DNA of 64,000 bases from SAR86 cluster bacterium SAR86B (GTDB lineage Bacteria; Pseudomonadota; Gammaproteobacteria; Magnimaribacterales; D2472): NCBI GenBank assembly GCA_905181955.1, contig CAJJAC010000009.1, positions 124,001 through 188,000 of the forward strand, in the 5' to 3' direction. This document shows positions 14,207-20,568 of this stretch, piece by piece. The notes under the pieces were generated by a model. It saw nothing but the letters and a program-made list of their open reading frames with translations. It did no database searches and was not told the DNA's origin. How positions within the stretch are numbered: position 1 is the first letter of the stretch; every line of letters begins with the position of its first letter. The translations under genes were made by a program, and so were the position numbers.

Positions 14207-17197
14207 ATGCAGCTTAAACATATTAAACTGGCTGGTTTCAAAAGTTTCGTGGACCCCACGAGAATATCTTTTCCTACAAATTTAGTGGCAGTTGTTGGTC
14301 CAAATGGTTGTGGCAAATCTAATGTAATTGATGCTGTCAAATGGGTTCTAGGAGAGCTATCAGCTAAGAACCTTAGGGGCGACTCAATGTCTGATGTTAT
14401 TTTTAATGGTTCAGACTTAAGAAAACCATCTGGTCAATGTAGTATTGAGCTTCTATTTGATAACTCAAGTGGTAAATTAGGCGGTGAGTATGCTGCTTAT
14501 AATGAGATATCCATTAAGCGATTAATGACAAGAGATAGCCAGTCTACCTATTTTATTAATAGCACAAAATGTCGACGTAAAGATGTTCAAGATCTATTTC
14601 TAGGAACAGGGCTTGGTCCTAATAGCTATGCAATTATTGAACAAGGTATGGTTTCAAATTTAGTAAGCGCAAAGCCTGAAGAATTAAGAGTACATATTGA
14701 AGAGGCAGCAGGGGTATCTAAATATAGAGAAAGACGAAAAGAAACAGAGCAAAGAATCAAGAAGACAAAAGAAAACCTATCAAGAGTTAAGGATATTAAG
14801 GACGAAATCTCAAGACTAATTAGACGCCTTGAGGGCCAGGCTAATGCTGCAGAAAAATATAATCAACTTAAAGCTGAAGAAAAAGAAAATGAATTAAAAG
14901 TAGCTATATTATTTTCCCTTGAAGCTAAAAACAATAGAGATGCATTGCAGAAAAAATTAGATGTAACTCTTAGAGATCAAACTATTAAGGATGCAGAAGC
15001 TAATACCAAGCAATCACAGATAGATAAATATAGAACTGAACATGAGTCTGTAAGGGCATCTTATGACGAAGCTCAAAAGAACTTTTATGCAGTAGGAGCA
15101 GATATAGCTAGGCAAGAAGCCGACCTTCAAAATGAAACCAAGACACTTATTCAAAGCAAATCAGATATAGAAAGAGCTAAAGAGAGTTATGCAAAAGCTA
15201 TAGAAAAAGAATCAACTTTTGAAAATTTAACGCCTAAAGAAAAAGAATTAAAGTTAAATATATCTATTTTAAAAGCATTAGAAGCTTTAGATAAAAAAGC
15301 AGAACTTAATTTAAAAATATCACCACTAGAGTTAGGTATTGCAGAAAAAACCGCTGAGCTTGATTTGCAGCAATCAAGATTAACAGAAGTAAAAGAAAGC
15401 TATGCTTCAGTTGCATCCGGATTTGAGGCAGCCAGATCTTCCGCATCTTCAATTAGTTCAAATATAGCCATGCATGAAGCTGATCTTAGAAATATAAATA
15501 AGATTGAGGTTCAAAGCAAAATAGATCTTGAGAAGGCTAAAAAGAGTTATGCAAACGCACTAGAAGAAGAAGCTAATATTGATAATTTAAGTCCTAAAGA
15601 AAAAGCTATTAATTTATTAGATATGATTATTGATACGCTCAAAGCTATGGGTTCTGGAAGTGATGGAGTCTATCAAAAAGCTATTGAGTTAAAAGATCAA
15701 TTAACTCAAATATTAAATATTGCTTCAGCTCAATCTAAATCTCTAACTGATGAGTACCTTAATAGACAAAATAGCTTATCTGAACTTCTTAAAGATAATG
15801 CTGAGAAAAAGTCTATAACCGAAAGAGAGTTAGGTGAATTAGTTCAAAGCAAATCAACTATTGAGATTGAGTTAGAGGAATTTAGAGGCAAGCGAACACA
15901 AGCAGATGATCTTATAAGAGAAATGGAAAATAAGCGCTCTGTTGCAGCAGCTGACTTAAGGACTCTTGAAGCACAAATAAATGCATTAAAGCTAGAATTA
16001 AGGACTTTTGAAGTAAATCTAGAGAATGCCTCTCACGCCTTAACTAAAGAAGGAATTAATCCAGCTGAGCTTAACTCCTCTGAGTTTAAAGATATGAATT
16101 TATTAGAGCTAGAAGGTTCGTTAGAAAAAATTCAGGAAAGTATTTCAGCTCTAGGCTCTATTAACCTTGCTTCACCTGATGAATATTTAACAAGACAAAA
16201 TGATCTATCTAAAATAATTACTGAAACTGAAAGTAAAAAACAAAAATTAGAGCAAAGTATTGCTGAGCTTGTGCAAAAAAGCTCTTCTGCCGAAGGAGTG
16301 CTTGTAAATATTAGACAAGAGCAATCTAAAGTTGATCAAGAGCTTCGAGATCTTGAAAATAAAAGATCCATTGCTGAATTAGACCTAAGAGCTATTTCTG
16401 AAAAAGTTACCAATATAAAACTAGAACTTAAGACCTATGAGATTAATTTAGAAAATGCTAATGCAAGAATAAAGAAATCTGGAATCAATATAGAAGATAT
16501 AAATTATGAAGATTATGAAGATTTTGTTATTAAAGATATCGAAGATCAACTTACAGATATTCAGGCTAAAATTATTAGACTTGGCGCAATTAATCTTGCT
16601 GCTCCTGACGAGATTGCAGAAGAATCTATAAGAGGTAAGAAATTAGAAGAGCAATACAATGAACTTACCGAAGCATTGGATAAGCTAACTGGAGCTATTA
16701 AGAAAATTGATGTTGAAACAAAATCAAGATTTAAAGATAGCTTTGATGCAGTCAATAACAGATTAAAAGAAGTTTTTCCCATCCTCTTTGGAGGAGGATT
16801 TGCAGAGCTAACTTTACAGGATGATGATGCTTTAAATGGTGGCGTAGTATTAATGGCAAGACCTCCAGGTAAAAAGAATGCATCTATATCACAACTATCT
16901 GGAGGTGAGAAAGCTCTTACAGCATTATCCTTAGTATTTTCTATCTTTGAACTAAATCCAGCACCATTTTGTATGCTTGACGAGGTTGATGCTCCGCTAG
17001 ATGATTTAAATACACAAAGATTAATCAACATGGTTGAAGAGATGTCAAAAACTATCCAATTTATTTTTATTACCCATAATAAAGTTTCCATGGAGCGAAG
17101 TGATCATCTGATGGGTATTACTATGCAAGAAGCCGGGGTATCTAGATTAGTAACGGTAGATGTTAATCAAGCATTAGAGCTTGCTAACACTGATTAA
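14207..17197 (+). CDS. smc: SMC-family chromosome segregation ATPase lacking a recognisable hinge
   Basis: 996 residues, shorter than the roughly 1150-1200 usual for bacterial SMC. Both ATPase halves look intact: Walker A GPNGCGKS (31-38), Q-loop region, signature LSGGEKA (about 897), and Walker B LDEVDAP with Asp925/Glu926. Everything between is predicted coiled coil. I see no globular hinge with its conserved Gly residues. Instead the arms hold repeats: two copies starting at residues 304 and 424 (exactly 120 apart), and three starts at 515, 658 and 801 (exactly 143 apart). Each C-side unit ends in LGxINLA, a motif that occurs once in ordinary SMC. Downstream zipA and ligA confirm the gammaproteobacterial smc locus. 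It probably organises the chromosome with ScpA/B, which are not in this window. Confidence 0.9.
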   Translation: MQLKHIKLAGFKSFVDPTRISFPTNLVAVVGPNGCGKSNVIDAVKWVLGELSAKNLRGDSMSDVIFNGSDLRKPSGQCSIELLFDNSSGKLGGEYAAYNEISIKRLMTRDSQSTYFINSTKCRRKDVQDLFLGTGLGPNSYAIIEQGMVSNLVSAKPEELRVHIEEAAGVSKYRERRKETEQRIKKTKENLSRVKDIKDEISRLIRRLEGQANAAEKYNQLKAEEKENELKVAILFSLEAKNNRDALQKKLDVTLRDQTIKDAEANTKQSQIDKYRTEHESVRASYDEAQKNFYAVGADIARQEADLQNETKTLIQSKSDIERAKESYAKAIEKESTFENLTPKEKELKLNISILKALEALDKKAELNLKISPLELGIAEKTAELDLQQSRLTEVKESYASVASGFEAARSSASSISSNIAMHEADLRNINKIEVQSKIDLEKAKKSYANALEEEANIDNLSPKEKAINLLDMIIDTLKAMGSGSDGVYQKAIELKDQLTQILNIASAQSKSLTDEYLNRQNSLSELLKDNAEKKSITERELGELVQSKSTIEIELEEFRGKRTQADDLIREMENKRSVAAADLRTLEAQINALKLELRTFEVNLENASHALTKEGINPAELNSSEFKDMNLLELEGSLEKIQESISALGSINLASPDEYLTRQNDLSKIITETESKKQKLEQSIAELVQKSSSAEGVLVNIRQEQSKVDQELRDLENKRSIAELDLRAISEKVTNIKLELKTYEINLENANARIKKSGINIEDINYEDYEDFVIKDIEDQLTDIQAKIIRLGAINLAAPDEIAEESIRGKKLEEQYNELTEALDKLTGAIKKIDVETKSRFKDSFDAVNNRLKEVFPILFGGGFAELTLQDDDALNGGVVLMARPPGKKNASISQLSGGEKALTALSLVFSIFELNPAPFCMLDEVDAPLDDLNTQRLINMVEEMSKTIQFIFITHNKVSMERSDHLMGITMQEAGVSRLVTVDVNQALELANTD
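15116..15745 (+). repeat. 360-bp-period tandem repeat in the N-side SMC arm
   Basis: Two copies start at 15116 and 15476, exactly 360 bp (120 codons) apart. The first about 57 codons of each are clearly related at protein level: EADLQN/EADLRN, IQSKSDIE/VQSKIDLE, AKESYAKAIE/AKKSYANALE, and LTPKEKE/LSPKEKA. The second copy is incomplete, ending before 15749. The DNA has diverged at many synonymous sites, so the duplication is old and not an assembly artefact. Confidence 0.8.
15749..16640 (+). repeat. 429-bp-period tandem repeat in the C-side SMC arm
   Basis: Units start at 15749, 16178 and 16607, each exactly 429 bp (143 codons) after the last. Landmarks recur in order: DEYLNRQN/DEYLTRQN/DEIAEES; ENKRSVAAADLR/ENKRSIAELDLR; LKLELRTFEVNLENA/IKLELKTYEINLENA; and LGSINLAS/LGAINLAA. 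The third unit continues into the normal C-terminal ATPase half. Preservation of the exact period suggests that arm length and coiled-coil register are under selection. Confidence 0.85.

Positions 17198-20568
<3,371 letters not shown>

Follow-up and report, generated by a model that had tools for sequence, protein, structure and literature searches.

Bacterial SMC–ScpAB complexes (B. subtilis, Pseudomonas; TIGR02168) combine a split ATPase head, antiparallel coiled-coil arms and an SMC joint with the partners ScpA and ScpB. How far does such a complex depend on its hinge? The original prediction for the gene described here took the hinge to be needed for dimerisation and DNA entry in known SMC complexes. 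It is less essential than that, since the zinc hook of Rad50, though unrelated, can stand in for it in B. subtilis Smc; the arm lengths of the same protein work in steps close to one superhelical turn (PMC5344682). In hinge-less Smc, contacts between the arms aid dimerisation (PMC5526789). Core-only Wadjet, from which everything from elbow to hinge has been removed, still cleaves plasmid DNA, which serves as the readout for loop extrusion, as long as its ring stays closed, but obstacle bypass is abolished; the authors also remark that arms tend to be longer in SMCs that lack a hinge channel (PMC12647877). Sussfeld et al. (2025) reported a naturally hinge-less SMC from a clade of marine Actinobacteria (PMC12153180).

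The smc gene examined here (table 1) lies in the window, by which we mean the whole 64,000-nucleotide stretch of SAR86 DNA that was analysed. The window belongs to a 1.29-Mb draft genome in 13 contigs, estimated to be 88.8% complete. Cytochrome-c-maturation genes precede smc, and a zipA-like gene and ligA follow it, so that the order of the reading frames bears out the smc-zipA-ligA locus that had been proposed and that is shared with other bacterial SMC–ScpAB systems. The two ATPase halves are intact, as had also been claimed: the Walker A motif reads GPNGCGKSN, the signature LSGGEKAL and the Walker B FCMLDEVDAPLDD. The protein scores 828 bits against the NCBIfam model TIGR02168 (SMC_prok_B), passing its equivalog cutoff of 567. 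The Rad50 models remain far under cutoff, the archaea-specific SMC-related model NF045487 reaches 68.6 bits against a cutoff of 300, and no MukB model appears among the 25 NCBIfam matches listed or among the Pfam matches; TIGR02168 leads widely. Like Rad50 and SbcC the protein has a head and a long coiled coil but no SMC hinge. Unlike them it has an SMC joint, belongs to the SMC equivalog family and carries no zinc hook at its apex, there being no CXXC anywhere in the 996 residues. Judged by its sequence, it is an SMC of the SMC–ScpAB type. Among named relatives the closest is AG-349-N21, a single-cell genome of an uncultured SAR86 bacterium with an SMC of 727 residues, which assigns the window to SAR86.

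Table 1. Positions in the window of the smc gene, its parts and the two genes downstream.
Feature	Position	Strand	Details
smc, hinge-less SMC ATPase, long-arm (nested-duplication) allele	14207..17197	+	996 aa; Pfam and NCBIfam profiles
N-terminal ATPase half-head	14207..14713	+	residues 1-169; Walker A, residues 31-39
Outer N-arm helix	14714..15199	+	residues 170-331; collinear with canonical SMC to position 332; heptad periodicity z = 4.8
Mid-arm linker FENLTPKEK..	15200..15238	+	residues 332-344; relic of apex sequence NLSPKEK
Inner (duplicated) N-arm helix	15239..15574	+	residues 345-456; second copy of canonical positions 217-335
Helical apex in place of hinge	15575..15742	+	residues 457-512; helices 463-480 and 487-507
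Inner (duplicated) C-arm helix	15743..16048	+	residues 513-614
Second, mid-arm SMC joint copy	16049..16174	+	residues 615-656; LGSINLASPDE
Outer C-arm helix	16175..16477	+	residues 657-757
Canonical SMC joint	16478..16600	+	residues 758-798; LGAINLAAPDE
Head-proximal C-arm helix and C-terminal ATPase half-head	16601..17197	+	residues 799-996; signature 897-904, Walker B 921-933
Nested insert (own N-arm-apex-C-arm-joint copied into apex)	15239..16180	+	approximate extent
zipA-like gene	17198..17821	+	207 aa
ligA, NAD-dependent DNA ligase	17808..19985	+

Is the hinge truly missing? Pfam matches SMC_N in this protein and gives no SMC_hinge match even at E = 10, neither within residues 380–560 nor elsewhere. 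The hinge model, PF06470, finds nothing anywhere in the source genome (88.8% complete), nor in any of 203 genomes of the order (SAR86); in the class it is present in 110 of 143 genomes. Because the Pfam model misses some genuine hinges, we built a hinge HMM of our own from an alignment of 69 full-length gammaproteobacterial SMCs. It gives the Pfam-missed hinges of full-length SMCs 95–185 bits and every SAR86 SMC at most 1.6 bits. Those Pfam-negative class genomes that we followed up were traced to a full-length SMC with an HMM-detected hinge, to the lack of a close SMC match, to a partial match, or to two further families, f42 and f145, that we consider below. The gap between the two arms is only 49–56 residues, almost entirely predicted helical, which is too small for a hinge of about 170 residues. 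A real hinge diverged past recognition could appeal to the full-length SMCs of some genomes that PF06470 overlooks, but the class-specific HMM recovers those and the arm spacing leaves no room; we regard a divergent hinge unseen by Pfam as ruled out on these two counts, and as highly improbable in any form. Nor is the gene an artefact or in decay. The genome is a draft, incomplete and in several contigs, which might raise that suspicion, yet the same architecture recurs with conserved catalytic motifs in tens of independent assemblies, including single-contig genomes, and alleles of 995–996 residues occur in four genera. The probability left to this explanation is negligible.

The absence of a hinge, claimed at first for one protein, thus holds for its relatives, and the partners of the complex are still in place. 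In the source genome scpA and scpB, which the original prediction had proposed looking for, lie side by side on another contig. Among 28 genomes tested, 27 have scpA, and they include both hinge-less families outside SAR86. Retention of the two partners means that the complex is SMC–ScpAB and not a lone relic. A second SMC, full-length or otherwise, is not evident among the PF02463 matches of the 88.8%-complete source genome, and there is no parS-like site within the window. The hinge-less SMC is fixed throughout the order. Two genomes of SAR86 family f4 depart from the usual ScpA: at L182 (G042) the ScpA frame is only 160 residues long, runs into scpB and seems to be without the C-terminal winged-helix part, through true loss or assembly error, while G045 has no ScpA match.

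To locate what has been removed, we used as reference a full-length gammaproteobacterial SMC HMM of 1167 positions, in which the hinge occupies about 490–665. SAR86 SMCs are 727–843 residues long and collinear with the canonical gammaproteobacterial protein save for one central deletion. The short form from the window's genus (733 residues) matches positions 1–336 and 821–1166, collinearly, linked by 49 residues; canonical 337–820, that is, the hinge and about 155 residues of each arm, has been exchanged for 49 residues of helix. The deletion is thus nearly symmetric, taking almost equal lengths from both arms. Its end points differ in the other SAR86 families, at 353/809 in f4, 367/749 in f3 and 413/783 in f2. 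The catalytic motifs and the SMC joint are conserved across all four families.

Families f42 and f145, which came from a survey of 240 genomes of the class, are gammaproteobacterial, with genomes of 1.0–1.1 Mb and hinge-less SMCs of 927–944 residues encoded upstream of ligA (loci L150, G098:C1:1-9000; L153, G201:C1:714000-722500; L152, G443:C9:6000-13000). Their deletions end at 451/731 (f145) and 465/700 (f42). The latter removes almost nothing but the hinge and leaves about 10 residues, and the families as a whole present graded deletions, from almost hinge-only (f42) to the hinge together with half of the arms (f1). Most other uninterrupted SMC frames among those listed in that survey measure 1127–1441 residues and some are shorter. 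The two shorter ones that we examined keep the hinge, namely L154, cut by a contig end, and the complete frame of L155 (G063:C43:102500-109500), a natural mini-SMC of 1003 residues with short arms and a hinge of 108 bits; contig ends are the likely cause of the rest. At L156 (G374:C1:452000-458000), in a 1.0-Mb single-contig genome, smc is split into frames of 156, 263 and 656 residues and is apparently decaying. A phylum-wide scan for other short SMCs, in which few small genomes were sampled, returned the source genome and one frame of 903 residues (G521).

If most SMCs in the window's SAR86 family have 727–733 residues, why does the window's own protein have 996? Alleles of 995–996 residues occur in four genera: in the window genome and one relative of its genus, in g4, in g6 and in part of g9. 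Their surplus amounts to about 120 residues in the N-arm and 143 in the C-arm, and it is a second copy of canonical 217–335 and 818–978 lying inside the outer copy. The order is therefore outer N-arm, inner N-arm, apex, inner C-arm with joint, outer C-arm with joint. We conclude that the 996-residue form arose by nested self-insertion: a copy of the gene's centre went into its own apex, so that both arms and the SMC joint are now double. The first description of the centre, as coiled coil with short linkers, overlooked the internal duplication and the second joint. Self-BLAST of the 996-residue protein returned the whole-length match and no internal one; identities between repeats come from global alignment of the units. 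For the N-copy and the C-copy of each long protein they are 36/42, 29/34, 34/34, 33/32, 50/51, 31/29, 27/27 and 43/44%. Within every long protein the two copies have diverged to a similar degree, which fits a single event.

All inner copies group in a single clade (100% support), and independent origins of the long allele are rejected by the AU test (p about 1e-70). The long alleles share one origin. In the tree the inner copies adjoin genus g9, and the outer copies track their own lineages, which suggests that the long allele arose near g9 and then spread by recombination. An origin at the base of the family followed by many losses is not rejected when set against one near g9 (AU test, p = 0.066). 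The predicted gain of helix is about 105 residues in the N-arm and 95 in the C-arm, roughly one coiled-coil superhelical turn. A long-arm smc 97% identical to that of the window is found in the same genus at L010 (G001), where it is broken near residue 908; that assembly has an estimated completeness of 59%.

What takes the place of the hinge? AlphaFold predicts for the short form (mean pLDDT 74.6) an uninterrupted helix at 171–339, a short helix at 344–359 and a helix at 362–494, followed by joint and head. This monomer model has no alpha/beta hinge fold between the arms; its closest fold in the PDB is 5xei, an Smc head with coil and joint. The 996-residue form (mean pLDDT 69.3) is predicted to have outer and inner arm helices, a two-helix apex and two copies of the joint with matching patterns of secondary structure (615–656 and 758–798). 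Confidence is moderate in both cases, on shallow alignments, and in the long model the heads are poorly predicted. The arms have a hydrophobic periodicity of 3.5 residues (z 2.9 to 5.4). Conservation of the apex is not clearly above that of the arms, and a conservation hotspot there is not supported overall; only a local motif, NLSPKEKA, is conserved. Since the apex also differs between families, a single conserved dimerisation module is not favoured.

We consider it probable that this is a genuine SMC of SMC–ScpAB whose hinge and adjoining arms were deleted in SAR86 ancestry in favour of a short helical cap, and which would dimerise through arm and apex contacts, have its ring closed by ScpA and extrude loops. 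Each protomer would double back to form an antiparallel coiled coil, and contacts between arms and between amphipathic apex helices would join two protomers. ScpA would then close the ring, and ATP-driven engagement of the heads would extrude loops, as in hinge-deleted core Wadjet. The activity of core-only Wadjet and the longer arms of SMCs without a channel lead us to see the SAR86 protein as a natural counterpart: the 996-residue SMC is, on our analysis, most likely a natural core-only loop extruder without a hinge gate. For an obstacle the only way past would be to thread through the lumen, and the long-arm allele would make that lumen larger.

Might the SMC subunits form no stable dimer at all, meeting only when ATP engages their heads and being linked otherwise through ScpA? 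The failure to detect a dimerisation domain and the variable apex sequences of the families speak for such an arrangement, but we think it unlikely: coiled-coil periodicity is kept in both arms, the nested duplication extended both together, and core Wadjet required a closed SMC ring (PMC12647877). A domain-swapped dimer, in which each N-arm helix packs against the C-arm of the partner protomer and the coiled coil is itself the interface, would suit long, near-uninterrupted helices whose short connectors permit swaps. AlphaFold, however, shows a helical turn at the apex, and the doubled arms are compatible with both arrangements; the swap is thus not favoured and seems to us rather doubtful. 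The conserved apex motif could instead mark the place at which a hinge is provided in trans by a second, small protein. This is very unlikely, given that neither the source genome nor any of the 203 genomes of the order has an SMC_hinge match and that the apex motifs are not common to the families. Dimerisation through arms and apex, together with ScpA, remains our preferred reading.

The protein departs from its SMC–ScpAB relatives in having a short helical cap in place of hinge and distal arms and, in the window allele, a nested arm duplication with a second joint. With the SMC of marine Actinobacteria (PMC12153180) it shares a head with coil, the lack of both hinge and zinc-hook CXXC, and abundance in the ocean. 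It differs in phylum and in its gammaproteobacterial heads: among the best 80 matches of a cross-bacterial scan the named relatives are Gammaproteobacteria or burkholderia-type, none of them actinobacterial, and a tree of heads, built without actinobacterial sequences, places the SAR86 SMC among Gammaproteobacteria. The SMC section of PMC12153180 makes no mention of SAR86, ScpAB, arm deletion boundaries or arm duplication. The engineered core-only Wadjet ecJET (Liu et al. 2025, PMC12647877) likewise has a short linker where the elbow-to-hinge segment was; it is a JetABCD and not an SMC–ScpAB system, and its dimerisation requires a disulfide. The B. subtilis Mini-Smc and Smc–Rad50 zinc-hook proteins can also remain functional with shortened arms or a replaced dimerisation domain, but they were made in the laboratory and still possess a domain dedicated to dimerisation (PMC5344682).

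Was the hinge lost once or several times? In the head tree SAR86 stands together (support 99), and f42 and f145 fall elsewhere among Gammaproteobacteria with weak support. The tree thus sets the three hinge-less groups apart, although forcing all of them together is not rejected (p = 0.12). Profile–profile comparison of the apex caps between families gave no support for common ancestry (probability below 8%). On the strength of the differing deletion end points and the unrelated caps we favour repeated loss, or repeated trimming, of the hinge in Gammaproteobacteria. The proposal of a lineage-specific redesign of condensin accordingly stands in so far as the change is lineage-wide, with ScpA and ScpB kept, and fails in so far as f42, f145 and the marine Actinobacteria (PMC12153180) have come to the same state.

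A full-text search confined to open-licence papers found none on the SAR86 SMC and none on nested arm duplication. A hinge-less SMC was already known from marine Actinobacteria; new here are the other phylum, the order-wide fixation, the retention of ScpAB, the mapped deletions and the nested duplication. As a broader and more speculative picture, which we hold to be possible rather than probable, small-genome planktonic bacteria may have repeatedly lost the SMC periphery, hinge and distal arms, and retained a minimal core condensin. In SAR86 one allele may then have returned to near-canonical arm length in a single step, by inserting a copy of its own centre into its apex, and recombination may afterwards have carried the cassette across genera. 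Both halves of the core/periphery model of 2025 would in that case have been played out in nature, first the removal of the hinge gate and then an enlargement of the lumen.

SMC proteins have hitherto been defined in part by their hinge, which was held to be nearly universal, and a whole order of abundant ocean bacteria does without it and still has ScpA and ScpB. By the obstacle-bypass model of 2025, such hinge-less motors should extrude loops but fail to get past tethered obstacles. One genus has both short and long alleles, which offers a ready comparison of arm length, and, with the hinge lost throughout an order and the deletions graded in other families, the purpose of the hinge becomes directly testable with natural proteins.
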